Source: Alphaproteobacteria bacterium (lineage in GTDB: Bacteria; Pseudomonadota; Alphaproteobacteria; UBA2966). Taken from it: a stretch of DNA of 63,579 nucleotides. The stretch lies in assembly GCA_030740435.1 (NCBI GenBank), contig JASLXG010000228.1, positions 1-63,579 on the forward strand, written 5' to 3'. How positions within the stretch are numbered: position 1 is the first letter of the stretch; each line of letters opens with the position of its first letter. This document shows, piece by piece, positions 11,022 to 26,483 of the stretch. The position numbers and the translations under genes are program-made. The notes beneath the pieces are model-generated. The model did not search any database. It was not told the DNA's origin and saw only the letters and a list, made by a program, of their open reading frames with translations.

Positions 11022-11170
11022 GGTGGTGCCTTCCGTCCGTCTGGCAGGAGCCGAAACATTCCGAGGCGGGACCGGCTGTCGAATTCGTTCAGTATTATGC
11101 CGCAGTTGTCAGGGAGGAATTGCGCAAATAACAGGGCGGCACTCTCGATATTTGCGGAAAACTTGCGAAT

Positions 11171-11195
11171 GGACATATGATCATGCGTGATGTCC
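11171..11195. promoter_or_regulatory. Inverted repeat GGACAT-N13-ATGTCC, candidate Lrp-type operator
   Basis: Six-base perfect arms GGACAT (11171-11176) and ATGTCC (11190-11195) surround an inner ATGATCAT palindrome. The site ends 17 bases before the Lrp-like start and lies in the 191-base divergent gap. A second palindrome TTGCGCAA is at 11120-11127. Autoregulation and control of the divergent MIO enzyme are inferred from position. Confidence 0.45.
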
Positions 11196-11212
11196 GCAAC
11201 AGGATTTGCACA

Positions 11213-11695
11213 ATGATCAATCTCGATGAATTCGATCGCCAGATCCTCAGCGCCCTGCAGCAGGACGGTCGCTTGACCAGCCAGCAATTGGCCGAAGCGA
11301 CGGCGCTGTCGGCCTCGCAGTGCGGCCGCCGCCGCCAGCGCCTCGAGGAACTGGGCGTCATCAAGGCCTACCGGGCCAACCTCTCGTACCGCAAGGTCGG
11401 CATCGGCATCATGGCTTTCGTCGATGTCACGCTGACCAGCCATAGTCAGGAGGACATTTCATCGTTCATTCGGCTGATCGAGGTGAACAGGAACATTCTC
11501 GAGGCCACCAAACTGACCGGCGGCGTGGATTTCCTGCTCAAGGTCGTGGCCCGGGATTTGGACCAGTTCAATGACCTGATCAGCAACGTGCTGCTGCCCC
11601 ACCCCGCGGTGGCCCGCGTGCAATCGCATATCGTACTGGAATGGCTCAAGGAAGGCGGCGAGCTGCCGATCGTGGAAAGCGATGACGGCGGCTAA
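11213..11695 (+). CDS. Lrp/AsnC-family transcriptional regulator
   Basis: DNA-binding regulator that typically senses an amino acid. The N-terminal winged helix-turn-helix covers about residues 1-60 (LDEFDRQILSALQQDGR, then LSASQCGRRRQRLEELGVI). The C-terminal RAM ligand-binding domain follows (about 70-145). The ATG at 11213 gives 160 aa, normal for Lrp, and is preceded by AGGA. An in-frame ATG at 11177 would add 12 residues. It is divergent from the MIO enzyme, the usual layout for a local Lrp-type regulator sensing the substrate or product of its neighbour, presumably phenylalanine or tyrosine. The corrinoid gene starts 72 bases downstream on the same strand and may be co-regulated. Confidence 0.9.
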   Translation: MINLDEFDRQILSALQQDGRLTSQQLAEATALSASQCGRRRQRLEELGVIKAYRANLSYRKVGIGIMAFVDVTLTSHSQEDISSFIRLIEVNRNILEATKLTGGVDFLLKVVARDLDQFNDLISNVLLPHPAVARVQSHIVLEWLKEGGELPIVESDDGG

Positions 11696-11767
11696 AGGCG
11701 TTTGCCTGGAGGGTGGTTTGTCTGGCTAAATGGGCGGTGGGGGAGGCATAGGGCGGAGGGCACAAGC

Positions 11768-12415
11768 ATGGCGGAGATTTACGAACAAATCGGCGAAGCC
11801 GTTGAGAACGGCGATGCCGAGGCGGTGGCCAGCCTGGTGGGCGAGGCCATGCAGGGTGGCCGGCAGGCCCTGGAGATCCTGGAGAAAGGCCTGGTGCCGG
11901 GCATTCAGGTGATGGGCAAGTTCTTTCAGGAAGGCACCGTCTATTTGCCCGACATTCTGGTTGCCTGCCGCGCCATGAACAGTGGCGTGGCGCTGTTGCA
12001 GCCGGAACTGGGCAAGATCAACATGCCCCACAAGGGCACGGTGGTGATCGGCACCATCGAGGGCGACATGCACGACATCGGCAAGAACCTGGTGAAATTG
12101 ATGCTGGAGAGCAACGGCTTCGAGGTCGAGGATCTGGGCACCGACGTGCTGCCCCAGGACTTCGTCACCGCCGTGCGCGAGTGCAACGCCGACATCCTGG
12201 CCATCTCGTCGCTGCTCACCACCACCATGGTGGGGGTCTCGGATGTCGTCGCGGCGCTGGACGCGGCCGGTCTTCGGGACAAGGTCAAGATCATCATCGG
12301 CGGCGCTCCGGTGACCTCGCAGTTCGCCGACAAGGCCGGGGCCGACGGCTTCGGCGAGGATTTCGTGGCGGCCGTCGACGTCTCGGAGAAGTGGATGCAG
12401 GAGGTGGCCCGATGA
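11768..12415 (+). CDS. Corrinoid-binding methyl-carrier protein (MtaC/MtbC/DmgC-like)
   Basis: Carries a methyl group on cobalamin between two methyltransferases. The N-terminal four-helix cap (residues 1-85) precedes a Rossmann-like B12 domain with the signature GDMHDIGKNLV near residue 100, whose His is the lower cobalt ligand, followed by SSLLTTTM and IIGGAPV. Length is 215 aa, as in the family. A strong GGAGGG site lies seven bases before the chosen ATG. The stop overlaps the start of the UroD-like gene (ATGA at 12412), so the pair is coupled. No reductive activase (RamA or ATP-dependent type) is found nearby, so reactivation would rely on a gene elsewhere. Confidence 0.9.
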   Translation: MAEIYEQIGEAVENGDAEAVASLVGEAMQGGRQALEILEKGLVPGIQVMGKFFQEGTVYLPDILVACRAMNSGVALLQPELGKINMPHKGTVVIGTIEGDMHDIGKNLVKLMLESNGFEVEDLGTDVLPQDFVTAVRECNADILAISSLLTTTMVGVSDVVAALDAAGLRDKVKIIIGGAPVTSQFADKAGADGFGEDFVAAVDVSEKWMQEVAR

Positions 12416-13605
12416 ACGATGCAGCCCCAGCCATGCCCAACCGCGAGCGCTTCAAGGCCATCTGCCGGGGCGAGCGTGATGGCGACGTCTCGCTGATCGA
12501 CTGGTTCCACCGCTCCTGGCTCGAGACCATCGACAACTGGATCGACGAAGGCGCGCCACCCGAGATCAGAAACCAGGACGCCTACAACGAATATTTCGGG
12601 CTCGACCACCTGCACGGCCTGCAGGAGATCATCTCCGAGCACAACCGGGCCGACTTGAAGGAGCTCGACACCCAAAGCCTGCTCTCGGTCCACGTCACGC
12701 CGCCCATCATGCCGGTCTTCCCAATCGAGATCATCAGCGAGGACGAGCGCCACCGCGTCGAGACCACCTATGGCGGCGTCACCGTCGAGGTCAACAAGCA
12801 GCACCCCTGGCGCATGCCCAAGTACGTCGACCGCCCGGTCAAGGACTGGGCCACCTGGAAGGAATACAAAAAGCGCCTCGATCCGGAGACGCCGGAACGC
12901 TACCCGGCCGACTGGCAGGCTTACGTCGAGCGCATGAACGCCACCGACGCGCCCACCATGCTGCTGCTGGAGGGCTATTTCGGGCCCTTGCGCGAATGGA
13001 CCGGCCTGGAGGAGCTGATCTACCTCTTTTACGACGCGCCCGATCTGGTCGAGGACATGATGGACCAGGTGCTGCATCTCAGCCTGGTCATGGCCAAGCG
13101 CGTGCTCAAGGATCTGCGCATCGATTGCGTGCGTTTCTGGGAGGACATGGCGTATCGTTCCGGCCCGCTGATCTCGCCCGAGATGTTCAAGAAGTTCATG
13201 ACACCGCGCTACCAGGTCATCACCGACTACCTGCGCGGCGAGGGCATCGAGATCCTGCATGTCGACAGCGACGGCGACGCTACGGAACTGATCCCGCTGT
13301 GGCTCGAGGTGGGCGTCAATTTCCCCTGGCCGCTGGAAGTGGCGGCCGGCATGGACGCCATCGCACTGCGCAAGGAATACGGCCGCGACTTGGTCCTCAG
13401 CGGCAACATCGACAAGCGCGTCTTCCTCGAGGGCAAGGAGGCCATCCGCCACGAGGTCATGTCCAAGGTGCCGCACCTGCTGGAAACCGGCGCCTACTTC
13501 CCCTGCCTCGACCACGCCGTGCCGCCCGACGTCAAGCTCGACGATTTTCGCTACTACGTCAATTTGCTGCGCGACATCGGCGGCCAGGACCCGCTGCCGG
13601 AGTAG
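12412..13605 (+). CDS. Uroporphyrinogen-decarboxylase-fold methyltransferase, corrinoid partner
   Basis: A 397-aa member of the UroD superfamily, longer than true HemE (about 350), with the HVDSDGDATELIPLWLE segment and a C-terminal DHAVPPDV motif that mark the methyltransferase-like branch (MtaA/MtbA/MtvA relatives). His and Asp in HVDSD and Cys in YFPCLDH could bind zinc or substrate. The gene overlaps the corrinoid-protein gene, so the two probably act together to move a methyl group between an O-, N- or S-methyl compound and a cofactor. The substrate cannot be told. It is unlikely to be haem-biosynthetic, because of the corrinoid coupling and the divergent sequence. Confidence 0.82.
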   Translation: MNDAAPAMPNRERFKAICRGERDGDVSLIDWFHRSWLETIDNWIDEGAPPEIRNQDAYNEYFGLDHLHGLQEIISEHNRADLKELDTQSLLSVHVTPPIMPVFPIEIISEDERHRVETTYGGVTVEVNKQHPWRMPKYVDRPVKDWATWKEYKKRLDPETPERYPADWQAYVERMNATDAPTMLLLEGYFGPLREWTGLEELIYLFYDAPDLVEDMMDQVLHLSLVMAKRVLKDLRIDCVRFWEDMAYRSGPLISPEMFKKFMTPRYQVITDYLRGEGIEILHVDSDGDATELIPLWLEVGVNFPWPLEVAAGMDAIALRKEYGRDLVLSGNIDKRVFLEGKEAIRHEVMSKVPHLLETGAYFPCLDHAVPPDVKLDDFRYYVNLLRDIGGQDPLPE

Positions 13606-13633
13606 GGGGGCTACCCAAGTTCCGAAGTTCCGG

Positions 13634-13666
13634 ACTTGCGTCAATTAAGTATGGTGTCCCGGACCC
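13634..13666. repeat. Left imperfect inverted repeat flanking the EamA transporter gene
   Basis: About 33 bases that match the reverse complement of 14581-14614 at about 28 positions; the shared blocks are CGTCAATT and TATGGTGTCCC. A tandem near-copy of its inner end follows: GTGTCCCGGACCC at 13654-13666 and GTGTCCCCGGACCC at 13667-13680. It looks like the end of a small mobile or REP-like element. Confidence 0.6.
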
Positions 13667-13725
13667 GTGTCCCCGGACCCTGCTGGCTTACCCCTAAAGA
13701 TCCTCATCAAAGTTGATAATTTTTT

Positions 13726-14607
13726 ATGCCGCTTCCCCAGAACAATCTTGCCGTCCTCTATTTGCTGGCGGCGACCGGGCTGATTGCCATCGTTGACACC
13801 ACCTGCAAGTTTTATACGGATGAACTGCATGCGGTGATGCTCGTGTGGGGTTATTTCGTCGGCATCACGGTAATTGTCGCCGGTTACTTCGGCGGCCGTA
13901 GAGAGTTTGCTTTGTTGCAAAGCGGCCGGCCAATAATGCAGCTCGTGCGCCCTGGTTTCCTGGTCCTGTCGATCACCAGCTTGTTTGTCAGCCTGACCTA
14001 TTTGCCGATTGCCGAAGCCACAGCTATCGGCTTCACCGGGCCGTTGTTCATTGTGGCGTTGTCCGTTCCGTTTCTGGGCGAACGCGTAGGCTGGCATCGT
14101 TGGCTCGCCGTTGTCGTCGGCTTGGCCGGTGTGCTGTTGATTGTCCACCCTGGCGGCGCAGTCTGGCACTGGTCAGCGGGCGTGGCGTTATTTGGCGCGG
14201 TTTGCTTTGCCGTCTTTCAACTCATCACACGTCACTTTGCGGGCAAGGAACGGCACGAGACCACACTGCTTTACACGAGCATCGGCGGAACTGCCTGGGC
14301 CAGCCTGATTGTGCCGTTTTTCTGGACCGCGCCAACAGTTAGCCAATGGCTGATGTTCTTGGTAATCGGCGCGATGGGGGCTGGCGCCCATTTTTGTATG
14401 ATTCAGGCGTTTTCGAAGGCGCAGGCATCTTTTCTGGCACCCTTCAATTACAGCAAAATGATCTGGGTAATGATCTTGGGTTACTTGGTGTTTGGTGAAT
14501 TCCCTGATCTGGATACCTTGATCGGCGCCGCCGTCATCGCGGCGGCTGGTCTTTACGTGGTCTATCGCGAAAGTCTCCAGGGTTCCGGGGACACCATATC
14601 CAATTGA
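13726..14607 (+). CDS. EamA/DMT-family membrane transporter
   Basis: A ten-helix drug/metabolite-transporter permease of 293 aa with two EamA repeats (about residues 8-140 and 150-285); typical content is LTYLPIAEATAIGFTGPLF at the end of the first repeat. It likely exports or imports a small metabolite; the substrate is unknown. Base composition is visibly lower in GC than the neighbours and codons end more often in A or T. The last seven residues and stop are encoded by the right inverted repeat, so the 3' end was shaped by the repeat. These signs suggest recent acquisition as a cassette. It starts at ATG 13726 after an AT-rich leader. Confidence 0.88.
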   Translation: MPLPQNNLAVLYLLAATGLIAIVDTTCKFYTDELHAVMLVWGYFVGITVIVAGYFGGRREFALLQSGRPIMQLVRPGFLVLSITSLFVSLTYLPIAEATAIGFTGPLFIVALSVPFLGERVGWHRWLAVVVGLAGVLLIVHPGGAVWHWSAGVALFGAVCFAVFQLITRHFAGKERHETTLLYTSIGGTAWASLIVPFFWTAPTVSQWLMFLVIGAMGAGAHFCMIQAFSKAQASFLAPFNYSKMIWVMILGYLVFGEFPDLDTLIGAAVIAAAGLYVVYRESLQGSGDTISN

Positions 14608-14614
14608 CGGAAGT
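14581..14614. repeat. Right imperfect inverted repeat, overlapping the 3' end of the EamA gene
   Basis: Reverse-complement partner of 13634-13666, with shared blocks GGGACACCATA and AATTGACG. The stop codon of the EamA gene (14605-14607) lies inside it. Together the two repeats delimit a segment of about 980 bases. Confidence 0.6.
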
Positions 14615-14667
14615 AGAGGGGGCACCATTAGGCCCCATTCATGCTGGATATCGCCGGATCGGATCCC

Positions 14668-15396
14668 CTAATCCTCCTCCGCCCCACTATCCCCCCAGGT
14701 CAGGCTGCGGTAATCGAAGCCCGTCTCCAGCGTCGGTTTGACGACCTGGAAGTAGGGCGAGAGGTCGAAATCTCGCGGCACGAACAGGCTGTGGTGACGC
14801 AGGTGCAGGACCTCGTGCTCGCGGCGCGGCAGGATGGGGTAGTGCACCGACTGGAAGGCTTGGGCGATCAGGGTCGAGCAGATGGCGCGGCTGGGATCGC
14901 CGCTCCCTAGCGCCAAGAGGCCGCGCCGCCAGCGCACCGGCACCGGCGGTTTGGGTAGTAGGTAACGCGCCAGATCGATGACGTTGCGCAGGTCGTAGGC
15001 GGTGCCGAGCCCGGCCACCAACGCCTCCACCACGGCGCGGCGGTCGGAATCGCTTAAGCCCACGGCGCGGCAGATGCGCGTGTTGTGCCCTTTGTATTTG
15101 GCCAACGGCACGGCCACCACGCCCTCGGAGAGGTTGGCCTCGATCAGGCACTGGCCGCCTTCGCACTCGGCAGCGTCGCCGACGTAGACGGCGGCGTGGC
15201 TCCAGGTCGACTGGGTCAGGTACTTGATGGCCACCGAGATGCGCTCGTTGCCCTCGACCAGCACGATGTCGCCGGGCTCGAGCACGCGGCCCAGCGTCTC
15301 GGGATCGCTGACGGCGAAGGGCACGTAGTTGCGCGCCGGCTTTTCCAGGTGGTGAACCAGCAGCCGGCCGATGGTGCGGCATAACCGGTTCCACAT
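14668..15396 (-). CDS. YiiX/YebB-like permuted NlpC/P60 cysteine hydrolase
   Basis: A 242-aa papain-like hydrolase of the permuted NlpC/P60 group. In these the His precedes the Cys: here His lies in STWSHAAVYVGD and the putative nucleophile in AICSTLIAQAF. GDIVLVEGNERIS is the typical opening strand. Family members cleave amide or ester bonds in peptidoglycan or lipids; the substrate here is unknown. The N-terminal MWNRLCRTIGRLLVH stretch is amphipathic, with no clear signal peptide. It follows korC by 23 bases on the same strand, so it may be the last gene of that operon, though nothing in its family links it to oxidoreductases. Confidence 0.72.
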   Translation of the reverse strand: MWNRLCRTIGRLLVHHLEKPARNYVPFAVSDPETLGRVLEPGDIVLVEGNERISVAIKYLTQSTWSHAAVYVGDAAECEGGQCLIEANLSEGVVAVPLAKYKGHNTRICRAVGLSDSDRRAVVEALVAGLGTAYDLRNVIDLARYLLPKPPVPVRWRRGLLALGSGDPSRAICSTLIAQAFQSVHYPILPRREHEVLHLRHHSLFVPRDFDLSPYFQVVKPTLETGFDYRSLTWGDSGAEED

Positions 15397-15419
15397 GGCT
15401 CGACAGCAGGCCGTAAGAC

Positions 15420-15950
15420 TCAGGCGGCGCCGAGCTCGTAGCCGGCGTCCAGGGCGGCCAGGTTGGAATCGAGAAAACGCGCCGGGATCTCGTCGCGAAT
15501 CGCCCGTTCCAGGGCCTCGCGGCCGCAGATGCCGTCGAGCGCCGCCACCACGCCCAGCCCGACGATGTTGGCGGCGCGCGGGTTGCCGAGTTCGATGGCG
15601 CGGTCGGTGAGCGGCGAGGCGTGCAGGCGGTAGTCGCCCTCGGGCGGCTGGGGCGCCAGGCGCTCGTCCAGCACCACCAGGGCGCCGGGTTTGAGTTGGG
15701 CCGCCGAGTGATCGAGTCCGACCTGGTCCAGCGCCAGCAACACGTCGATGGCGCTGAGCAGGGGATAGTCGACGTCCGAGTCGCTGACCACTACGTCGGA
15801 GTGGCAAAAGCCGCCGCGGCTGGTGGGCTCGTAGCTCTGCGACTGGGCCGCCTGCTTGCCCTCGAAGCCGACGGCGCGGAACAGCATGCGGGCACCCAGA
15901 ATCAGCCCCTGGCCGCCGCTGCCGGCCAGCCTGATCTCGCGCTCAGTCAT
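15420..15950 (-). CDS. korC: 2-oxoacid:ferredoxin oxidoreductase gamma subunit (KorC-like)
   Basis: Gamma subunit of a CoA-dependent 2-oxoacid:acceptor oxidoreductase, 176 aa, with the characteristic start REIRLAGSGGQGLILGA, the TSRGGFCHSDVVVS segment and AANIVGLGV. It forms a complex with KorA and KorB, probably turning 2-oxoglutarate into succinyl-CoA with reduction of ferredoxin. The ATG at 15950 was chosen because upstream residues come from the G-rich repeat. It is separated from korB by 168 bases holding two repeat copies, so its transcription could be partly uncoupled from the upstream genes. Confidence 0.87.
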   Translation of the reverse strand: MTEREIRLAGSGGQGLILGARMLFRAVGFEGKQAAQSQSYEPTSRGGFCHSDVVVSDSDVDYPLLSAIDVLLALDQVGLDHSAAQLKPGALVVLDERLAPQPPEGDYRLHASPLTDRAIELGNPRAANIVGLGVVAALDGICGREALERAIRDEIPARFLDSNLAALDAGYELGAA

Positions 15951-15974
15951 TTTCGGCCTCGGGCCGGGGTGCGT

Positions 15975-16012
15975 CACCCCCACCCCTCCCTCCCCCATCA
16001 AGGGGGAGGGGG
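15975..16012. repeat. C/G-rich repeat copy between korB and korC
   Basis: A pyrimidine-rich run followed by AAGGGGGAGGGGGA, which can fold as CCCTCCCCC...GGGGGAGGG. It is the reverse-orientation copy of the core seen at 5254-5273 and 16080-16100. Confidence 0.55.
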
Positions 16013-16079
16013 AAGGAAGTGGAAGGCGGTGAAGATTGTGATGGCTGGTGATAGCTCCCGCCCCCACAAAAACGAAACT

Positions 16080-16100
16080 GGGGGAGGGTCGGGGTGGGGG
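16080..16100. repeat. G-rich repeat copy (GGGGGAGGG...GGGTGGGGG)
   Basis: Direct match, apart from the two or three central bases, to 5254-5273. With the copy at 15975-16012 in opposite orientation about 70 bases away, it can form a long-range stem in the korB-korC transcript. Confidence 0.55.
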
Positions 16101-16118
16101 GGATCGCCGCCATGCGCA

Positions 16119-16955
16119 TCACTCCGTTTCCCCCGCCAGCCCCGCCGCATGCCGGCGATAGGTCTCGCCGTATTCGGGGCGCTCGAGGCGCACCAGTACG
16201 CCGGTTTCCATGCTGTTTGGCCGGAAGGGCTGGTCGGCCGTGTTGTGGTAGGCCTCGGGCCGCATGTCGGCTTTTTGGCTGAGAATCATCTCGGCCGATT
16301 CGCCGAGGTCGTTCTTGCGGCCGTAAATCTCGGTGCAGTCGGAGATGATCTCGAGGAAAGCAAAACCGGGATACTCGAGACCATCCTTGATCAGGTTCTT
16401 CAGGGCCGGCGTTTGCAGCGTCACCTCGCGGCCCACCAAGCCGGCCCCGGCGGCCCCGGCGAGCGCGCAGGCGTCGAAAGCCGGCTCGATGTTGCCGCTG
16501 GGCGTGGTGGTGGTCAGACGATCGGGCGAGGTTACCGGCGAGACCTGGCCGCCGGTCATGCCGTAGACCTCGTTATTCAGCATCAGGCAGGTGATGTCGA
16601 GGTTGCGCCTGGCGGCGTGGATCAGGTGGTTGCCGCCGATGGCCAGGCAGTCGCCGTCGCCGGTGATGACGACGAGGCGCAATTCGGGCCGGGCCAGCTT
16701 GAGGCCGGTGGCGAAGGCCAGCGGCCGGCCGTGGGTGACGTGGAAGGTGTTGGCGTCGATATAGGCGCCCACCCGGCCGGAACAGCCGATGCCGGAAACG
16801 ATGGCCAGATCATTTTTGTCGATGCCCAGCTCGTGCACGGCCCACAACAGCGCCCTCAGCGCGATGCCGTGGCCGCAGCCCGGGCACATGAAGTGCGGCA
16901 TCAGCTCGAGCCTGAGGTAGTCGCGGATCTCGAAAGATTGCGCTTGTTCGTTCAT
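16119..16955 (-). CDS. korB: 2-oxoacid:ferredoxin oxidoreductase beta subunit (KorB-like, TPP-binding)
   Basis: Binds thiamine diphosphate in a 2-oxoglutarate:ferredoxin oxidoreductase-type complex. The 278-aa protein has CPGCGHG near residue 30, the TPP motif GDGDCLAIGGNHLIH with downstream NN (LNNEVYGMTGGQ), and further Cys residues (GIGCSG, SDCTEIYG) of the sort that hold a [4Fe-4S] cluster. Its ATG overlaps the korA stop (ATGA at 16952-16955). The gene pair korA-korB with upstream ferredoxin-like domains is the usual Kor arrangement. Pyruvate cannot be excluded as substrate from sequence alone. Confidence 0.9.
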   Translation of the reverse strand: MNEQAQSFEIRDYLRLELMPHFMCPGCGHGIALRALLWAVHELGIDKNDLAIVSGIGCSGRVGAYIDANTFHVTHGRPLAFATGLKLARPELRLVVITGDGDCLAIGGNHLIHAARRNLDITCLMLNNEVYGMTGGQVSPVTSPDRLTTTTPSGNIEPAFDACALAGAAGAGLVGREVTLQTPALKNLIKDGLEYPGFAFLEIISDCTEIYGRKNDLGESAEMILSQKADMRPEAYHNTADQPFRPNSMETGVLVRLERPEYGETYRRHAAGLAGETE

Positions 16956-18085
16956 CTGGCCAACTCGCGTACCCGGGCGGCGATCTCGGCCGGTCCGATG
17001 GGTTCGCCGTCGATGCGGTTGAGGGGCAGCACCTGGGGCCCGGGCAGCAGGCGCTCGATCTCGATGACCAGTTGCCCGGCGTTCATCTCCGGCACCAGCA
17101 CGTGGTCGGCCTGTGCCGCCACCTGGCGCAGCGCTTCCTCGGGGAAGGGCCAAATCGTGATGGGGCGGAAAAGGCCGACTTTCAAGCCTTCCTGGCGCAA
17201 CTCGCGCCGTGCCCGGCGGGCCGCCCGGGCGGTGATGCCGTAGGCCACGATCAATATCTCGGCGTCGTCGCAGTCGAGCGCCTGGTAGCTCTCGATGTCG
17301 GCCCGGTGGCGCTCGAGCTTGCCCAGCAGGCGCTCCATGACCCGCGTCACCACCTCCGGTTCCTGGGTGGGAAAGCCGCTTTCGGCGTGGGTCAGGCCGG
17401 TGGTGTGGACGCGATTGCCGTCGCCCGGCCGGGCCATCGCCGGCACCCCGTCGGAGGTTTCGGCGTAGGGCTGGTAGTCGGGTGCATCGGCCTCGGCCCA
17501 TTTGCGCTCGATACGCACGATATCGGCCTCGGGCGGCGTCTCGAAGGTCTCCAAGAGATGCGCCACGATCTGGTCGAAGGTGACGATCACCGGCACCCGA
17601 TAGGCCTCGGAGAGATTGAAGGCGCGGATGGTCTCGTTGTAGATCTCCTTGACCGAGGCCGGTGTCAGCACGATCAGCGGGTGGTCGCCGTGGCTGCCCC
17701 AGCGGGCCTGCATGATGTCGGACTGGGCCGGCTTGGTGGGCATGCCGGTGGAGGGGCCGCCGCGCATGACGTTGACCACGACGCAGGGCACCTCGGTGGC
17801 GGCGGCAAAGCCGATGTGCTCCTGCTTGAGCGAGAAGCCCGGGCCCGAGGTTGCGGTCATGGCCTTGAGGCCGCCCATCGAGGCGCCCAGCACGGCCGCC
17901 ATCGAGGCCATCTCGTCTTCCATCTGGATGAAGGTGCCGCCCACCCGGGGCAGCTCGCGCGACATGCGCTCGGCGATCTCCGAGGACGGCGTGATGGGGT
18001 AGCCGGCGAAGAAGCGGCAGCCCGCCGCCACGGCGCCCAGCGCACAGGCGTGGTTGCCGTGCAGGTGTTGCAAACCGTTACTCAT
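16952..18085 (-). CDS. korA: 2-oxoacid:ferredoxin oxidoreductase alpha subunit (KorA-like)
   Basis: Alpha subunit, 377 aa, of the Kor-type complex. The pyrimidine-binding domain I is recognisable from AGYPITPSSEIAE near residue 30, QMEDEMASMAAVLGASMGG and SGPGFSLKQEH. Domain II ends with PEMNAGQLVIEIERLL. Its ATG overlaps the stop of the upstream IorB-ferredoxin fusion (TGA at 18085-18087), implying tight co-translation of the fusion with KorA. This supports the idea that the fused ferredoxin module serves as the delta subunit of this complex. Confidence 0.9.
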   Translation of the reverse strand: MSNGLQHLHGNHACALGAVAAGCRFFAGYPITPSSEIAERMSRELPRVGGTFIQMEDEMASMAAVLGASMGGLKAMTATSGPGFSLKQEHIGFAAATEVPCVVVNVMRGGPSTGMPTKPAQSDIMQARWGSHGDHPLIVLTPASVKEIYNETIRAFNLSEAYRVPVIVTFDQIVAHLLETFETPPEADIVRIERKWAEADAPDYQPYAETSDGVPAMARPGDGNRVHTTGLTHAESGFPTQEPEVVTRVMERLLGKLERHRADIESYQALDCDDAEILIVAYGITARAARRARRELRQEGLKVGLFRPITIWPFPEEALRQVAAQADHVLVPEMNAGQLVIEIERLLPGPQVLPLNRIDGEPIGPAEIAARVRELAR

Positions 18086-19011
18086 CAGGCGGCGACCGGC
18101 TCGCGATGCTTCACGGCGATGGCGAAGTCGGGGCAGAGCCACTCGCAGATGCGGCAGCCGGTACAGGCCTCGGGGTCGGTGAGCCGGGCCACCTGCCGGG
18201 CATCCAGCACCAGGCAGCGTTCGGGGCAAAGTTTGACGCAGATGTCGCAGCCCTTGCACCAGGCCTCGGTGATCTCGAGTTCCACTTCCATCGGCTGGCT
18301 CGGGAGGGGCGCTGCCGGCGGCGCCGGATCGGCCGCCGGCTCGGGCTTTGCCCGCGCCTCCTCGATCCAGGTGCGGCCCTGCTCGAAGGCCTCGAGGTTG
18401 ACGTCTTCGGTGCCCTTGGGCACGAACATGGCGATCACCTTGCGCCAGTCCTCGAGCGGGAAGTCGAAGGTCGTCGACAGGGTGCCGAGCAGGATGGTGT
18501 TGGCGGCGCGGCTGTTGCCGATCTCGTCGGCCATGCGGCCGGCCGCCAGGGCATAACCTTCGCCGACGCGCGCGACGATCTCGCCCGGCGTCTCCTTGGC
18601 ATAACCAAGCTCGGCGCCGATGCCTCGGTTGCGGCAGGCAAAGGGCGGCACCACCTGTTGCGTGTCGGAGATGAAGACGCCGTTCTCGGGGCGGAGATAA
18701 GGCAGCCAGCGCAGGCCCTCGGCCCACTCCAGGGCCAACAGCACGTCGGCCTCGCCCAACGGAATGGTCGGCGACCAGACCTGGCCGCCATAGCGCACGT
18801 GGCTGAAAACGGAGCCGCCGCGCTTGGCCATGCCGTGGACTTCGCTCTGCTTTACCGAGTAGCCCTGCATCTGGCAGACCAGGGCCAGCACCTTGGAAAT
18901 CATAATAACGCCCTGGCCGCCGACGCCGACCACCAGCACGTTGCGCGTCACCGCCGTGGCCGGATCGAGGGCGGCGGCTTGATCTTGGCTGAGGAGTTCA
19001 GGCTGGCTCAT
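18085..19011 (-). CDS. iorB: Fusion: indolepyruvate oxidoreductase beta (IorB-type gamma domain) + 2x[4Fe-4S] ferredoxin (KorD-like)
   Basis: 308 aa. Residues about 20-215 form a gamma domain typical of IorB (VVGVGGQGVIMISKVLA, SEVHGMAKRGGSVFSHVRYG, NTILLGTLS), which pairs with IorA to oxidise aryl pyruvates to aryl-acetyl-CoA. A proline/alanine-rich linker (PEPAADPAPPAAPLP) leads to a C-terminal ferredoxin with two cluster motifs, CKGCDICVKLCPERC and CTGCRICEWLCPDF, typical of the KorD delta subunit. Ferredoxin domains are not usual in IorB. The gene lies between iorA and korA, with 7 bases to the first and an overlap with the second. The fusion may therefore belong to both complexes. Confidence 0.85.
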   Translation of the reverse strand: MSQPELLSQDQAAALDPATAVTRNVLVVGVGGQGVIMISKVLALVCQMQGYSVKQSEVHGMAKRGGSVFSHVRYGGQVWSPTIPLGEADVLLALEWAEGLRWLPYLRPENGVFISDTQQVVPPFACRNRGIGAELGYAKETPGEIVARVGEGYALAAGRMADEIGNSRAANTILLGTLSTTFDFPLEDWRKVIAMFVPKGTEDVNLEAFEQGRTWIEEARAKPEPAADPAPPAAPLPSQPMEVELEITEAWCKGCDICVKLCPERCLVLDARQVARLTDPEACTGCRICEWLCPDFAIAVKHREPVAA

Positions 19012-19018
19012 GATTGGC

Positions 19019-20836
19019 TCATGACACGGGCTGGATGCAGTCGCTGGGGCAGATCTGGGCGCACAGCGTGCAGCCGATGCAACTGGCGCCGTCGATGGCC
19101 ACCTTGCGGTGGCCTTCATAGGTCTCGTCGATCCAGCTGATCGAGGGGCAGCCCAGGTTCATGCAGGCCTGGCAGGCGACGCAGCCGGCGGCCTCGACCG
19201 CCAGCGTCGGGCCGCGCAGCTTGACCGGGTCGAGCACGCAGGGCCGGTCGGAGATGACCACCGCGACACCCTTGTACTCGGTGGCCTCGCGCAGCGTCTG
19301 GTAGACCGCGGCGACGTCGTAGCTGTCGACCGTGCGTATCCATTCGACGCCAACGGCGCGGCAGAGAGCTTCGTACTCGATCTTGTGGGTCTCGTCGCCG
19401 CGCAGCGTGCGGCCGGTGCCAGGATGGTCCTGGCCGCCGGTCATGGCCGTGATCTGGTTGTCGAGGATCAGCACGGTGATGTCGGCCTGATTGTAGACGG
19501 CGTCGATCAGCGGCGGGATGCCGGCATGCAGGAAGGTCGAATCGCCCAGCGTCGCGACGATCGGCTTTTGCTCGCTGCCCGACTTGGCGATGCCCACGGC
19601 GTTGCCGATGCTGGCGCCCATGCAGACCGTGGATTCGATGGATTTCAGCGGCTCGACGGCGGACAGCGTGTAGCAGCCGATATCGCCCGCCACCCGGGCA
19701 TCGAGCGCCCTCAGCGCCATGTAGCTGGTGGTGTGGGGGCAGCCCGGACAGAGTACCGGCGGCCTGACCAGCGGCGTCACGCCCCAGTCGTGAACCTCGG
19801 CCGGTGCTTCCATCACGCCCGCCTTGGCCAATCCGGCGCGCACGCCCTCGGGCGAAAGCTCGCCGACGCGGGGAAAGAATTCCTTGCCCTCGGCTGCGAT
19901 GCCCAGTGCCCGCACCTCGGTCTCGATCACCGGCTCCAGTTCCTCGACCACGAAGACGCGGTCGACGGAGGCACAGAACTCCTCGACCACTTTGCTGGGC
20001 AGCGGGTACGAGGCCGCCAGCTTGAGCACGCTGGCCTCGGGCGCCACTTCCTTGACGTAGGGGTAGCAGGTGCCGTGGGTGATGATGCCGAAGCTGGTCT
20101 CGCCTTTTTCCCAGCGCGTGAGGTCGCTCTTTTCGAAATACTCGCGCAAACCTTCTTCGCGTTTGATCAGTTCGGGGTGGCGGATGCGGGCATAGGCCGG
20201 GATCATCACCGTTTTCTGGGAATCGTCGACCCAGCCCTTGGAGGGATGCTCGTGGCGCTCTCCCACCAGCACCGGGCTGCGGGTGTGGGAGAGCCGCGTC
20301 GTGGCGCGCACGATCACGGCGGTGTCGAACTGCTCGCTGATGTCGAAGGCCAGGCGCGTGAAGTCGAGCGCCTCCTGGGCGTCCGAGGGTTCCAGCGCCG
20401 GGATGTTGGCCAGCCGGCAAAAGATCCGGGTGTCTTGTTCATTCTGCGATGAGTGGATGCCGGGATCGTCGCAAACCGCCAGCACCAGGCCGCCGTGGAC
20501 GCCGATGTAGGTCTGCGACATGATCGAATCGGCGGCCACGTTGACGCCCACGTGCTTCATGCTGGCCAGCGCCCGGACGCCCGACAGCGAGGCACCGATG
20601 GCCACGTCCATGGCCACCTTCTCGTTGGTCGACCACTGGGCGTGCAGGTCCTCGGCGTCGTAGGTCGCCAGGCTTTCCATGATCTCGGTACTGGGCGTTC
20701 CCGGATACGAGGCCGCAACCTGCACCCCGGCCTCCCAGGCGCCGCGCGCGATGGCCTCGTTGCCGGTCAGGGGCCGGGGCAGGTTAGGGCGGCGCTCAGC
20801 GTTGCTGGCAGCCTCGGGCTGTGCCTTCATCAACAT
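19019..20836 (-). CDS. iorA: Indolepyruvate:ferredoxin oxidoreductase alpha subunit
   Basis: Large subunit (605 aa) of the enzyme that converts indolepyruvate or phenylpyruvate, the transamination products of aromatic amino acids, to the aryl-acetyl-CoA with reduction of ferredoxin. Domain order: pyrimidine-binding N-terminus (ASYPGTPSTEIMESL), middle domain, TPP domain (GDSTFLHAGIPPLIDA, then LDNQITAMTGGQ), and a C-terminal ferredoxin with CVACQACMNLGCP and CIGCTLCAQICPSDC. It is the first gene of a five-gene operon (iorA, iorB-fd, korA, korB, korC). A strong hairpin lies 37 bases upstream of the start. Confidence 0.93.
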   Translation of the reverse strand: MLMKAQPEAASNAERRPNLPRPLTGNEAIARGAWEAGVQVAASYPGTPSTEIMESLATYDAEDLHAQWSTNEKVAMDVAIGASLSGVRALASMKHVGVNVAADSIMSQTYIGVHGGLVLAVCDDPGIHSSQNEQDTRIFCRLANIPALEPSDAQEALDFTRLAFDISEQFDTAVIVRATTRLSHTRSPVLVGERHEHPSKGWVDDSQKTVMIPAYARIRHPELIKREEGLREYFEKSDLTRWEKGETSFGIITHGTCYPYVKEVAPEASVLKLAASYPLPSKVVEEFCASVDRVFVVEELEPVIETEVRALGIAAEGKEFFPRVGELSPEGVRAGLAKAGVMEAPAEVHDWGVTPLVRPPVLCPGCPHTTSYMALRALDARVAGDIGCYTLSAVEPLKSIESTVCMGASIGNAVGIAKSGSEQKPIVATLGDSTFLHAGIPPLIDAVYNQADITVLILDNQITAMTGGQDHPGTGRTLRGDETHKIEYEALCRAVGVEWIRTVDSYDVAAVYQTLREATEYKGVAVVISDRPCVLDPVKLRGPTLAVEAAGCVACQACMNLGCPSISWIDETYEGHRKVAIDGASCIGCTLCAQICPSDCIQPVS

Positions 20837-20873
20837 CCGGCCGTGACTTTCTTGGCTGAGTTCCCACTAATCG

Positions 20874-20907
20874 TTTACCCGCCGCCGGATGGCCGGCGGC
20901 GGGTAAA
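20874..20907. other. Perfect 15-bp stem, 4-base loop hairpin upstream of iorA
   Basis: TTTACCCGCCGCCGG and its exact complement enclose a loop ATGG. It sits in the 260-base gap between divergent iorA and the molybdenum-carrier-like gene. There is no U tract beyond the A/T ends, so a simple terminator is doubtful, and no gene reads into it. Possible roles are a leader structure for iorA, an operator or a REP-like element. Confidence 0.6.
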
Positions 20908-21096
20908 GCTCGCGAATAATGCCGGAGCTTTCGGATTATTGCATTGATATATATCAAGCGCGATCCCAAAAGCACAAAGAATCAAAGGTTTTTTCCGTTC
21001 CGACCGCCGTGCAGCTTGATCGGGCGTTTTGCCGGCGGAAGGCTCGGCTTCGTCGACCATGGCGGGTAATCTATTTGCGCTAGATGGGGAATTACC

Positions 21097-21615
21097 ATGG
21101 CTCGGAGGGATCTGCGACGTCAGCCCTGGCACCGGCTCGGCCTGGAGGGTCTGGTCAGCGGCGGCCAAACCGGCGTCGACCGGGCCGCCCTCGATCTGGC
21201 GCTGGCCGCCGGCATGCCCTGCGGCGGCTGGTGTCCGAGGGGGCGTTGGGCCGAGGATGGGCCGCTCGATGCGCGCTATCCGTTGCGCCAGACGCCGCTG
21301 GCCCGGGTGGTTCAGCGCACGCTTTGGAACATGCGCGACAGCGACGCCACGCTGGTGCTGGCGCGCCATCGGCCGCAGGGGGGATGGGGCGGCAGCGCCA
21401 TCCTGACCAGCCAGGCCGGTGTCGCCCGGCCGCGCCTGGTGGTCGATCCCACGGCTGACCAGGGGCCGCGCCAGGCCAGCGCCTGGCTTCGCCGCCACCG
21501 GGTGCGGCTCTTGAACGTCGGTGGCCCGCGGGCCAGCGAGGACGAGGACATTTATGACCTGGCGCGCGGCTTTCTCGAAAGGCTGCTGCTGGCGCCCGCT
21601 AACGGCGATCGCTAG
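21097..21615 (+). CDS. Putative molybdenum-carrier-like (YpsA/SLOG-fold) protein
   Basis: A 172-aa Rossmann-like protein with SGGQTGVDRAALDLAL near residue 21, GGWCPRGRWAEDG and NMRDSDATLVL, the hallmark of the putative molybdenum-carrier family related to SLOG nucleotide-binding domains. Family members bind molybdenum cofactor or nucleotides; the role is not settled. A GGGG-rich site precedes the ATG. The MFS permease starts 33 bases downstream on the same strand, so they may be co-transcribed. There are no molybdoenzyme genes in the window to explain it. Confidence 0.75.
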   Translation: MARRDLRRQPWHRLGLEGLVSGGQTGVDRAALDLALAAGMPCGGWCPRGRWAEDGPLDARYPLRQTPLARVVQRTLWNMRDSDATLVLARHRPQGGWGGSAILTSQAGVARPRLVVDPTADQGPRQASAWLRRHRVRLLNVGGPRASEDEDIYDLARGFLERLLLAPANGDR

Positions 21616-21648
21616 TCTCTCGGCTCTTTAGGGGATTTTGAAAAAGCC

Positions 21649-22872
21649 ATGCCACCAGCGCGCGCCCAGGGCACCACGCTTGTCGTGGTGATGTGCCTGA
21701 CCCAGGCCACGGGGCTCTTGGGCATGGGGGTGCTGCCGGCGCTGCTGCCCGGCTTCATCACTGAGTGGTCGCTCTCGGGCACCCAAGCAGGATGGCTCAA
21801 CGGCATCTTTTTCGGTGGCTACATGGTCTCGGTGATCGTGCTGGTCAGCCTCACCGACCGCATCGACGCCCGCTTCGTGGTGCTGGGCTCGACGGCGCTT
21901 TCCTTCCTATCGCTGCTCGCCTTCGGCTTCTTGGCCGAGGGTTTCTGGTCGGCGCTGGCGCTGCGGGCGCTGCACGGCGTTGGCTTCGCCGGCAGCTACA
22001 TGCCCGGGCTCAAGGTGCTGACCGACCGGCTGGAGACCGACGATCCCTCGCGCGGCGTCGCCTTCTATACCGCCAGCTATGCCATCGGGGGCGCGCTGAG
22101 CTTCTATTTCGCCGGTAAGATCGACGCCCTTTGGGGCTGGCCGGTGGCCTTCGGAGTGTCGTCGCTGGGGGGGCTTGTGGCTTTTCTGCTGGTCTGGCTG
22201 GGGACGGCGCCCAAGCCGGTGGTGCGCGACCACGAGGCGCCGCTGCTGCTCGATTTTCGGCCGGTCTTCAGGAATCGCGCCGCCGTCGGCTACATGCTGG
22301 CCTATGCCCTGCATACCGCCGAGATGATGGCCGCCATGTCGTGGACGGTGGCGTTCCTGACCTTCGCTGCCGCGTTGCAGCCGGCGGCGGCGCTGGGCTG
22401 GAGCATCACTCTGATCGGTGCCGTGGCCTCGGTCGTCGGTCTGCCGGCCAGCGTGCTGGGCAATGAAGGGGCGCGGCGTTTCGGGCGGCGGCGTTTTATC
22501 TCGGTGGTGATGGTTGTGTCGGCTCTGTGCGGTGCCGGCATCGGTTTTGCGGCTACCCTGTGGTTTCCGCTGCTGGTCGGCTTCTGCATCCTCTACAGCG
22601 CCGTGATCGCCGCCGATTCGGCCTCGCTGACGGCCGGCACGGTGATGGCGGCCAGGCCCGAACAGCGTGGCGCCACAATGGCCGTGCATTCCTTCGTCGG
22701 CTTCGGCGGTGGCTTCATGGGGCCGCTAGCTTTCGGCGCCATGCTCGACCTGGCCGGCGGTGCCGACGTGGTGGCCTCGTGGGGGATCGCTTTCGCCATC
22801 GTCGCGCTCGCCACCATCGCCGGGCCCTTTTTCCTCGCTCGCTTTTCGGGCGGCGACGAAATTAGGGGCTGA
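21649..22872 (+). CDS. Major facilitator superfamily permease
   Basis: A 407-aa inner-membrane transporter with about 12 hydrophobic helices. The conserved loop-2-like motif is seen as SLTDRIDARFVVLG, with LRALHGVGFAGSYMPGLKVLTDRL near helix 4. The layout resembles small-anion or organic-acid MFS carriers (CynX/NarK-type), but the substrate cannot be inferred. It is co-directional with the molybdenum-carrier-like gene, which could hint at an oxyanion, a weak contextual guess. It converges on the TAXI binding protein across a hairpin. Confidence 0.85.
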   Translation: MPPARAQGTTLVVVMCLTQATGLLGMGVLPALLPGFITEWSLSGTQAGWLNGIFFGGYMVSVIVLVSLTDRIDARFVVLGSTALSFLSLLAFGFLAEGFWSALALRALHGVGFAGSYMPGLKVLTDRLETDDPSRGVAFYTASYAIGGALSFYFAGKIDALWGWPVAFGVSSLGGLVAFLLVWLGTAPKPVVRDHEAPLLLDFRPVFRNRAAVGYMLAYALHTAEMMAAMSWTVAFLTFAAALQPAAALGWSITLIGAVASVVGLPASVLGNEGARRFGRRRFISVVMVVSALCGAGIGFAATLWFPLLVGFCILYSAVIAADSASLTAGTVMAARPEQRGATMAVHSFVGFGGGFMGPLAFGAMLDLAGGADVVASWGIAFAIVALATIAGPFFLARFSGGDEIRG

Positions 22873-23015: not shown

Positions 23016-24032
23016 CTATTTCCTTGGCTTGAAAACGACCGGTTCCGGAATCGTCCAGCCCTTTTCCTTGTAGTACCTCTCGGCGCCCGGGTGCAGCCGG
23101 CTGGCGACCAGTTCGAGGCCCAGCTCGCGGGTAATCGTCGAGGGCATCCACTGGGCGGTTTCGTGTATCTCCCCGAGGTGCTGCCAAATCGCTTTGGTGA
23201 CCCGATAGACGACGTCGGCGTCGACATGCATACCGGCGGAGAAATTCACCACGGCACCATGTGTTCTGGTCGCCGTGTCGTTGACCTGACTGGAGCCATA
23301 GGCCCCTGGCTGGATTGTATTGACCGTGCCACCGATGGCCTTGTTGATCTTCATCTTGTCGACGTTGACATCGAGGATGCGGATCTTTTTCGTCAGAGCG
23401 AATTGCTGGATGGATGGAGAAGGCACATTGGTGGGCAGCACGATCACGTCGATCTTGTCGTCCTGGAAAGCCTGAATGGCGGCGTCGAAGCCGAAGCTTT
23501 GCACGTCCATGTCCTTGGCCGTGAGACCCACCGTCTGCTTGAGCGCCCGCAACACGACGCCCTTGGCGGCGCCACCGGGAGGACCGGCAAAGACCTTCTT
23601 GCCCTTGAGATCGGCAAGCGTCTTGATCCCGGAATCGGCCCTGGTCACGTAGTGATAGGGGCCGATCTGATACGAGAAGATCATGCCGATGTGCTTTTCC
23701 AGCTCGGGACCGTTGGTGAATTTCTTGTAGGGGCCGAAGTGGTTGACCAGCAGCCAGTTGATGGTCGGCGAGCCAAACAGGAAATCGACCGAACCTTTGG
23801 CCGCGTCGACGAAGTGCTTGGTGGCCGCCCCGGTCGCCCGGACCTGGAAGTCGACCCCGTCGACGTACTTGTTGACGACCTTCGAGATGGCCGTGTTGAC
23901 GACAAAAGGCGACATCCCGGGTGCAATCGAGGTGACTTTGAAGACTTCCGCTACCGCGGCGGTCGTAAGCAAACCCCCGGCCAGAATGCCGGCAGCAGCC
24001 AATCTGAGCGATGTGGTCATGACGTGTTTCAT
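23016..24032 (-). CDS. TAXI-family TRAP transporter solute-binding protein
   Basis: Periplasmic receptor, 338 aa, with a Sec signal peptide (MKHVMTTSLRLAAAGILAGG, then AAVAE as probable cleavage site near residue 28). The mature part has TAXI features: a repeated GxxGA-type binding loop (TGAATKHFVDA), DLKGKKVFAGPPGGA and VNTIQPGAYG. TAXI proteins deliver carboxylates such as 2-oxoglutarate or glutamate to a fused TRAP permease, encoded 16 bases upstream. The cognate MarR regulator and divergent amidohydrolase suggest that the ligand is an amide or a related catabolite. Confidence 0.92.
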   Translation of the reverse strand: MKHVMTTSLRLAAAGILAGGLLTTAAVAEVFKVTSIAPGMSPFVVNTAISKVVNKYVDGVDFQVRATGAATKHFVDAAKGSVDFLFGSPTINWLLVNHFGPYKKFTNGPELEKHIGMIFSYQIGPYHYVTRADSGIKTLADLKGKKVFAGPPGGAAKGVVLRALKQTVGLTAKDMDVQSFGFDAAIQAFQDDKIDVIVLPTNVPSPSIQQFALTKKIRILDVNVDKMKINKAIGGTVNTIQPGAYGSSQVNDTATRTHGAVVNFSAGMHVDADVVYRVTKAIWQHLGEIHETAQWMPSTITRELGLELVASRLHPGAERYYKEKGWTIPEPVVFKPRK

Positions 24033-24048
24033 GGTTTCCTCCCTTCAG

Positions 24049-25977
24049 TTAATTCCGATTGCCGACAAACGACGGCATGAGTCGCGACGAAAAAAGGCCG
24101 ATGACCAGCGCCAACAGAGCCGCTGGCACCCAGAGCACGGCGATGGGGAACATGGCAGCGGAGCCGACGACGAAGCGTAGCGCTCTCTGCCTGAGTCCGA
24201 TTCGACCGAGGATCGGATCCGCACCGCCGAGAGACGTGCCAAACATCCAAGTGGCGGCAAGCAGGCGAATGATGGTGGTGACAAGCTCAGCCCAGCTGAA
24301 CTCGCCGGCCACCAGCAGCAGTGACGGCGAGTAGACGAAGACGTAGGGCACGAGCAAGCCGACAATGGAGATCCTGAGCGCGATGAAAGCCGTTTGCAGC
24401 GGATGGCCGCCGGCGATCGGGGCCGCGACGAAGCAGCCGTAGGCGATGGGCGGCACGATCGAGGAGTAGACGGCGAAGTAGAGCACGAACATGTGCGCCG
24501 CCAAGGGCAATACCCCGGCCTTGATTATGGCCGGCGCAATCATGATGGCGATGATCAGGTAGGCGGGCAGCGTCGGCAGGCCCATTCCCAGGACCAGGGC
24601 CCCGAACATCCCCAGGACAAGGGCAACAATCAGATAATCTTCGCCGAAGACCGAGATCGCTCCGGCGAATCGAATGGCCACGCCGGTCTCGTTCACCACC
24701 GCCAGAACAATCCCGATTACGCCAACGGCCAGCATGATCTGGGCCGCCGATCTGCCGCCCTCGATAAGAGCCCTGACGATACGCATCGGATCGTTGCGGA
24801 AGGCCGAATTGAGCACGAAACCCGTGACGATTGCCGTCAACACACCGACAAGCCCCGCCGTGGCCGGCGATTTGCCCATGATGAAGGTGATCATCAGCAT
24901 CGCTATGGGCAGCACGACCAGCAGGGAGTCCAGCCAATCCCGCGCGCTGAGCTGCGGGATCTGGTCCTCGGGCAGGGTCTTGATGTCAAGCCGGATGGCC
25001 TCGGCATAGACTTGGGCAAAAAGGCCGATGTACTTGAACAGCGCCGGCAGGGCGGCGGCCGCGATGACCAGCGAAAAGGGCATGCCCACGAGGTCGGCCA
25101 TGACGAAGACGGCCGCCGCCATGATCGGCGGCGTCAGCTGACCGCCCGACGAGGCCGCGGTCTCAACCGCCCCGGCGAAGTTGGCCGAGAACCCCTGCCG
25201 CTTGATCATCGGGATGGTAAAGACGCCGGTGCCGGCGATATTCGCCGCCACGCTGCCGCTCATCATGCCGAACACGGCGCTGGCGACGATGGCGGCGTGG
25301 GCGGCGCCGCCCCGGACGCGGGCCATCAGCGCCGTCGAGATATGGATCAGGCTTTCGCCGGCGCCGGTACGTTCGAGGACGGCGCCGAAAATCAGGAAGA
25401 TCAGGACGTTGTCGGCGACCAGCCCGGTGATGCGTCCGAATACGCCATCGAAGGAATACCAGACGATTTGCATGAAATCGCGCATGTTGACGCCGAAATG
25501 CTCGAGAATCCCCGGCAGCCAAGGGCCGGCAAATCCGAAGGCAATGAAAACGAGAGCCATGATCGCCAGCGACCAGCCCCAGGCCCGGATGGTCAACAGC
25601 ACCAGTGCCGTCATGCCGGCCAGGGCCGCGGCAATGTTCATCGGCGTCGACATATAGAAACCGGTCCACAGCTCCTCCTTGACCTGGAAGAACCAGTAGG
25701 CGGAAAAAAGGAAGGCCGCGACGATCAGGGCATCCATGGCCCAGGCGAGAAAACGAACCCTCCAAAAGGCGGGCAGAAGTGCCGCCGGTTGCGTCGTCAG
25801 CACGATGACCGCACTGACGGCAATGGCGCCGAAACGGGCGTTGGCCTCGTCGATGACGAAAAAGGCGATGATGGCGATGATGACGAGCGAGAAAAGGCCG
25901 GCGCAAATTCGCCCGAATCTCTGAATAGGAAGATAGTTTGCCCTATCGGCAGATGAGCCCCAGGCAGTCTCGCTCAT
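24049..25977 (-). CDS. TRAP transporter fused permease (DctQ-DctM fusion)
   Basis: A 642-aa inner-membrane protein combining the small (about 4 helices) and large (12 or more helices) TRAP subunits, as usual for TAXI systems. Typical elements are GSVAANIAGTGVFTIPMIKRQGF and VETAASSGGQLTPPIMAAAAF-like stretches in the DctM part, and GMGLPTLPAYLIIAI. It uses a sodium gradient to drive uptake. The ATG at 25977 (MSETAWGS) overlaps the marR stop as ATGA, which decides the start over one three codons upstream and implies coupled translation. Confidence 0.92.
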   Translation of the reverse strand: MSETAWGSSADRANYLPIQRFGRICAGLFSLVIIAIIAFFVIDEANARFGAIAVSAVIVLTTQPAALLPAFWRVRFLAWAMDALIVAAFLFSAYWFFQVKEELWTGFYMSTPMNIAAALAGMTALVLLTIRAWGWSLAIMALVFIAFGFAGPWLPGILEHFGVNMRDFMQIVWYSFDGVFGRITGLVADNVLIFLIFGAVLERTGAGESLIHISTALMARVRGGAAHAAIVASAVFGMMSGSVAANIAGTGVFTIPMIKRQGFSANFAGAVETAASSGGQLTPPIMAAAVFVMADLVGMPFSLVIAAAALPALFKYIGLFAQVYAEAIRLDIKTLPEDQIPQLSARDWLDSLLVVLPIAMLMITFIMGKSPATAGLVGVLTAIVTGFVLNSAFRNDPMRIVRALIEGGRSAAQIMLAVGVIGIVLAVVNETGVAIRFAGAISVFGEDYLIVALVLGMFGALVLGMGLPTLPAYLIIAIMIAPAIIKAGVLPLAAHMFVLYFAVYSSIVPPIAYGCFVAAPIAGGHPLQTAFIALRISIVGLLVPYVFVYSPSLLLVAGEFSWAELVTTIIRLLAATWMFGTSLGGADPILGRIGLRQRALRFVVGSAAMFPIAVLWVPAALLALVIGLFSSRLMPSFVGNRN

Positions 25978-26483
25978 TTGTCCCACTCGCTCTGGCGCAA
26001 CTGGCTTTCGTTGTGTTCCAGCAGTTTGTCGAGAACGCGCATGAATTCCAGGTATTCTTCCCTGGTCAGAACTTCAACAGCCGCTTCGTTCCTTTGCTTT
26101 GTGAATGGCAGTACTCTGTCATGCAGTTGCCTTCCTGCTTCGGTGGTGTGGATTTCCAGCGAACGGGCATCATCCCTGGCCACCATCGTATCAAGGAATC
26201 CACGCTCCACCAGCGCTTTGACAATGCGGCTCAGTTGCCCCTTGTCCATGATCAGGCGTCCGGCAATCTCACGAAACTGAACGGGTTCCAGGGCCCGGGC
26301 GAGGCCCAAGACGCGCCATTCGTTGAGACGGAGAGCGAACATCTGCTCCGACCAGCGATGACCTGCGCGCTCGTTGATGGCGACCAGCCGGGCCAGCCGG
26401 AAAACCATCAGCTCGGTGATATCCTGGGCTGGAGGATGAACAGCCTCAGCGGCAGGATCGCTCGCGGACGCCTCTATAGTCAT
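25974..26483 (-). CDS. MarR-family transcriptional regulator
   Basis: A 169-aa winged-helix regulator. The DNA-binding part reads LRLNEWRVLGLARALEPVQFREIAGRLIMDKGQLSRIVKALVE-like in order: helix, recognition helix (DKGQLSRIVKAL) and wing (ARDDARSLEIHTTEAG). The ATG at 26483 has AGGGAAC upstream and gives the normal family length; a reading frame open to 26597 would run through the operator region. It heads the marR-permease-receptor operon and is divergent from the amidohydrolase. A perfect palindrome in the shared gap is the likely binding site, relieved by the transported compound or its hydrolysis product. Confidence 0.9.
   Translation of the reverse strand: MTIEASASDPAAEAVHPPAQDITELMVFRLARLVAINERAGHRWSEQMFALRLNEWRVLGLARALEPVQFREIAGRLIMDKGQLSRIVKALVERGFLDTMVARDDARSLEIHTTEAGRQLHDRVLPFTKQRNEAAVEVLTREEYLEFMRVLDKLLEHNESQLRQSEWDK

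Follow-up and report, generated by a model that had tools for sequence, protein, structure and literature searches.

An IorB-type gamma subunit joined to a KorD-type ferredoxin as a candidate shared subunit of two 2-oxoacid oxidoreductases

A five-gene run with a fused subunit

The window analyzed here, positions 1 to 63,579 of contig JASLXG010000228.1 of an alphaproteobacterial assembly, carries iorA, a fusion gene, korA, korB and korC as one tight run on its minus strand. The genes, and the parts of the fusion protein, are as follows.

20836-19019, minus strand: iorA, 605 aa, indolepyruvate (aryl-pyruvate) oxidoreductase alpha subunit
19011-18085, minus strand: iorB::korD fusion (iorB::ferredoxin), 308 aa
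18363..18942, minus strand: IorB-type gamma (POR) domain, fusion residues about 24-216
18291..18363, minus strand: Ala/Pro-rich linker, fusion residues about 217-240
18088..18291, minus strand: KorD/OorD-type two-[4Fe-4S] ferredoxin domain, fusion residues about 241-308
18085-16952, minus strand: korA, 377 aa, 2-oxoacid:acceptor oxidoreductase alpha subunit
16955-16119, minus strand: korB, 278 aa, 2-oxoacid oxidoreductase beta subunit (TPP)
15953-15420, minus strand: korC, 177 aa, 2-oxoacid oxidoreductase gamma subunit

Only 7 nt separate iorA from the fusion gene, the fusion stop codon and the korA ATG have one base in common (TGATG, position 18085), and korA overlaps korB by 4 nt. The original prediction had described a two-domain reading frame in which an IorB domain is followed by a Pro/Ala linker and a two-cluster ferredoxin, and had placed this gene between iorA and korA, overlapping the latter. 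The reading frame, Pfam domains and motifs bear out the first description, and the coordinates and the TGATG junction agree with the second. Pfam places a POR domain at residues 31-213 of the 308-aa fusion and Fer4 (4Fe-4S) motifs at about 247-298. It also assigns a POR domain to KorC, a gamma subunit separate from and additional to IorB. No separate korD is found in the window operon.

Elsewhere in the window, the operon has as its opposite-strand neighbor a gene (21097-21615, plus strand) for a circularly permuted YpsA of the SLOG family. At 11702-13605 (plus strand), genes for a B12-binding corrinoid protein and, after it, a member of the uroporphyrinogen-decarboxylase family have the layout of a corrinoid methyltransferase system, and an NMT1/TAXI-type solute-binding protein lies with a DctM-type TRAP permease at 23016-25986 (minus strand).

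Family assignment of the fusion and its neighbors

IorA passes the IOR_alpha model TIGR03336 (704 bits, cut-off 651), contains POR_N, TPP_enzyme_C and Fer4 domains by Pfam, and carries its own C-terminal two-cluster ferredoxin domain at residues about 547-602. The gamma half of the fusion, judged by its nearest models, is of the IorB type: its best NCBIfam matches are the IorB models NF005325 and NF005322, at about 180 bits, a score that misses all IorB cut-offs (230-237 bits), and it reaches 44 bits against the 2-oxoacid gamma model PRK08537. Foldseek matches this half to the OorC-type subunits 8ys5_B and 3g2e. With an IorA above the IOR_alpha cut-off, a gamma subunit nearest to IorB and iorA directly before it, the locus resembles the indolepyruvate:ferredoxin oxidoreductase IorAB. 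IorB, however, normally ends after the POR domain, at about 200 aa, whereas the window protein has an added KorD and, with its extra linker and ferredoxin, fails the single-domain criterion of IorB.

The ferredoxin half (CKGCDICVKLCP...CTGCRICEWLCP) contains two complete [4Fe-4S] motifs with all eight cysteines, and the cysteines of its two CxxCxxCxxxCP motifs are invariant in 44 sequences. When the whole protein served as query, the best PDB match was 8ys5_D (4e-11, over residues 238-304), part of a 2-oxoglutarate:acceptor oxidoreductase described as Helicobacter pylori OorDABC. When only the ferredoxin was used, a polyferredoxin subunit outscored 8ys5_D; this candidate was rejected because its score is the sum of many weak repeats, and over the best single stretch it reaches 18 bits, against 48.5 for 8ys5_D.

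The possibility that the ferredoxin aligns only to IorA, raised with the original prediction, was not borne out; the domain groups with KorD. In a ferredoxin-domain tree built on about 60 aligned residues, fused and stand-alone KorD domains together form an exact split from all IorA ferredoxins (support 0.98). The signature C..C..CE..CP[DE]FAI is present in 75 of the 86 fusions but missing from all 86 IorA proteins, and among 24 conserved non-cysteine positions, 9-14 are common to KorDs and 3-6 to IorA ferredoxins. By these residue comparisons, the ferredoxin half is of the KorD/OorD type and not of the IorA C-terminal ferredoxin type. Against the OorD model NF007205 it scores 48 bits, below the curated cut-off of 93, which we count against the shared-subunit reading developed below. 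This cut-off is likewise missed by the stand-alone KorD that the same genome encodes (49 bits), and an OorD family search in the class returned mostly unrelated ferredoxins.

The original prediction took the downstream enzyme to be a 2-oxoglutarate oxidoreductase. Membership in the 2-oxoacid family stands, KorA passing the generic model PRK08659 (565 bits, cut-off 411), but the 2-oxoglutarate label is less secure: KorA falls below the cut-off of the 2-oxoglutarate synthase model. The best match of KorB is the 2-oxoglutarate beta model PRK09628 (279 bits, below the cut-off of 364), and KorC scores 125 bits against PRK08537, below the cut-off of 235. The substrate of KorABC is probably 2-oxoglutarate, though this is less firmly assigned than aryl-pyruvate for IorAB. 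The two-subunit KorAB of Magnetococcus and Thauera (PDB 6n2n) belongs to the same 2-oxoacid oxidoreductase superfamily as the window KorABC, but there the gamma domain is fused to alpha, whereas the window korC is separate. Gamma-fused alpha subunits in the phylum are about 40% identical to the window KorA, and the loci that were read show no iorAB next to them.

In 15 of the fetched loci, the fused operon is bordered by a gene resembling those for phenylacetate-CoA ligase, which lies downstream in 11 and upstream in four. Two of these genes were checked against the PaaK cut-off of 646 bits; one passes (688) and one lies just below (614). No paaK is adjacent to the operon in the window itself. 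The adjoining ligase-like genes fit the oxidation of aryl-pyruvates to aryl-acetyl-CoA. IorAB of Aromatoleum aromaticum is reported to convert phenylpyruvate directly to phenylacetyl-CoA (PMC9765128). In about 10-14 loci, the stretch upstream of the operon contains genes that resemble those of branched-chain amino acid ABC transporters.

Conservation of the fusion and its gene order

A pattern scan of 84,980 genomes turned up at least 584 relatives. The best 80 of them were retrieved and, together with the window locus and five loci from genome samples, form a set of 86. The fusion is intact in 86 of 86 loci and in 4 of 4 further loci from class and order samples (90/90), which span Alpha-, Beta- and Gammaproteobacteria. 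In all 90, iorA precedes the fusion. korA follows directly in 83 of the 86 and in all four of the others, making 87; the remaining three loci (L071, L090 and L095) end at a contig edge, and L095 shows the first korA residues. The concern that such fusions might be common without an adjacent korA was therefore not borne out, as korA is present in 87 of 87 loci where the contig continues. At L028 (5920-6374) and L046 (3191-3435), the fusion and korA are separated by a gap of about 210-420 nt, with no overlap.

Because taking the 80 best favors full-length matches, the genome samples carry more weight. These samples cover Pseudomonadota, and other phyla were reached only through the pattern scan and the plasmid collection. 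Ten sampled genomes besides the window's own encode the fusion, each with iorA before it and korA after it. Across 44 aligned homologues of 57-91% identity, none of the eight cysteines is lost and the two-domain layout persists. These counts are of non-independent events, and the fused clade may derive from a single fusion.

Unfused IorB proteins (31-47% identity) differ in both surroundings and domain make-up: in 18 of 18 loci no korA was found in the fetched flank, mostly about 1.5 kb, and no ferredoxin was present on the IorB. Across 399 genomes of the phylum, a KorA more than 60% identical to that of the window occurs only beside the fusion. No match in the plasmid collection covered a fusion, only the IorB part being matched, and a protein search of plasmids for KorD gave no match. 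In five other fusion genomes, no second KorD-like match was better than 6.6e-8.

Separate versions of the two enzymes occur in the same genome. Contig 5 (10000-22000) carries a stand-alone korD-korA-korB-korC operon, and contig 68 (8000-21000) carries a second, unfused iorAB pair whose products are about 41% (IorA) and about 38% (IorB) identical to the window proteins and which has no korABC beside it. Because korDABC and iorAB exist as separate loci, the window operon has the appearance of an iorA-iorB pair fused in frame to a korD-korA-korB-korC operon. Ilyobacter likewise has a stand-alone korD-korA-korB-korC operon, with a 1-nt korD/korA overlap like that between the fusion and korA; Sulfurovum has the same korDABC layout and overlap, with the beta gene absent from an incomplete plasmid annotation. 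The fused ferredoxin occupies the place of the stand-alone korD in such operons. OorDABC/KorDABC, known from Helicobacter pylori (PDB 8ys5), matches the window in having the delta gene directly before alpha, beta and gamma and in its KorD-type ferredoxin residues, but its delta subunit is free, whereas that of the window is the C-terminus of IorB.

On contig 5, an HdrA-like protein of 651 aa with FeS motifs follows korDABC, and a succinate-dehydrogenase-type FeS protein is encoded near it, both named from sequence. In this setting, a 2-oxoacid oxidoreductase may have a separate route for its electrons.

A predicted shared gamma/delta subunit

AlphaFold2, run on 44 sequences, predicted the gamma domain with confidence, the ferredoxin fairly confidently, and the N-terminus and linker with low confidence. 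In Foldseek, the fusion model aligned over most of its length to a Moorella oxalate oxidoreductase chain of about 310 aa, and also to PFOR (PDB 5c4i and 6cin), proteins that, like the fusion, hold gamma-type and two-cluster ferredoxin domains in one chain. The oxalate oxidoreductase chain (5c4i B/E) is of the gamma-delta type. These alignments speak for a plain gamma-delta fusion serving a single enzyme, as in oxalate or pyruvate oxidoreductase. The full-length alignments, however, have an rmsd of 12-16 A with poor relative placement, so the placement of the domains is not common to both. Further, the two domains of the Moorella enzyme and PFOR belong to one enzyme, whereas those of the window derive from two, the gamma half being of the IorB type and the delta half of the KorD type, and KorABC keeps its separate gamma subunit, KorC, whereas an enzyme of the oxalate oxidoreductase type would have no second gamma. 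We consider a plain gamma-delta fusion very improbable.

The linker bears on a different alternative. The conserved Trp at the end of the gamma domain and the first Cys lie 30-48 aa apart (median 37, n=77), the linker sequence is not conserved, and pLDDT falls below 50 at residues 230-235. Because such a linker is flexible, the fusion could serve co-assembly only. It would then be a dosage tether that holds the components at a 1:1 ratio and makes co-assembly faster, or whose linker is cleaved, and the two enzymes would work independently without exchanging electrons. The variable, low-confidence linker of the Ala/Pro type speaks for such a tether, and so does the complete set of clusters that each of the two enzymes possesses, IorA with its own two-cluster ferredoxin. 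On the other hand, the fusion is retained in Alpha-, Beta- and Gammaproteobacteria, and none of the 90 loci has a split version, which suggests more than dosage; we regard a tether of this kind as unlikely.

We also compared evolutionary distances across 61 operons. In this weak test, the partial distance correlation of the ferredoxin was 0.32 with IorA, 0.20 with KorC and about -0.02 with KorA and KorB. Taken by itself, this leans slightly against KorA/KorB as exclusive partners. The highest residual correlation, that with IorA, would agree with a KorD-derived domain recruited as a second wire for IorA, leaving KorABC to use a soluble ferredoxin. However, no other chain is as long as IorA or reflects the shared tree as well, which may inflate its own correlation. 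Moreover, IorA already has a ferredoxin, the domain retains KorD-type residues and its place before korA, and the fusion and korA are never apart in the sample. Recruitment to IorA therefore seems quite improbable.

Three observations, that the fusion is never found without korA where the contig continues, that the 18 unfused IorB loci lack korA, and that the ferredoxin groups with KorD, make a polypeptide common to both enzymes the best reading. The korDABC operons elsewhere with a 1-nt overlap, and the separate korDABC and iorAB loci in the same genome, also count in its favor. We consider it moderately probable, from sequence comparison, that IorB::KorD serves as gamma in an aryl-pyruvate oxidoreductase and as delta in a 2-oxoacid oxidoreductase and thereby holds the two together physically. 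Because the fusion was kept in all 90 loci examined, the data suggest that both enzymes are put together as a single assembly. To this extent the shared polypeptide of the original prediction survives; its further proposal, that the fusion could wire the enzymes into a supercomplex, drew no support from the distance correlation for a KorA/KorB partner.

Under the shared-subunit reading, the N-terminal half would provide the aryl-pyruvate oxidoreductase IorAB with its gamma-type subunit, which is called beta in IOR, and the C-terminal half would be the delta (ferredoxin) subunit of the neighboring KorABC, whose operon has no other korD. Assembly of both enzymes would then yield a tethered IorA / IorB-KorD / KorABC complex, in which electrons from each active site would pass to [4Fe-4S] clusters on the same scaffold and from there to an external low-potential carrier. 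We infer that each half would bind at its ancestral site, that the resulting complex would be stable, and that electrons could be exchanged between the halves. A stronger version, in which IorAB and KorABC form an obligate two-substrate supercomplex on one cluster-bearing scaffold, with electrons from aryl-pyruvate and from 2-oxoglutarate (or another 2-oxoacid) pooled, or with one reaction driving the other in reverse, is tentative and on balance doubtful.

In this superfamily, the oxidoreductases known so far are single enzymes, with domains separated or combined in various arrangements. A literature search of open-licence papers found none on an IorB::KorD fusion. A fused KorD is easily missed in annotation, which can make the KorABC of these genomes seem incomplete. 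If the shared-subunit reading is true, one polypeptide would serve as gamma for one enzyme and delta for another, a new way of joining two enzymes, and the pooling of electrons from aromatic amino acid breakdown with those from central 2-oxoacid metabolism would become directly testable.
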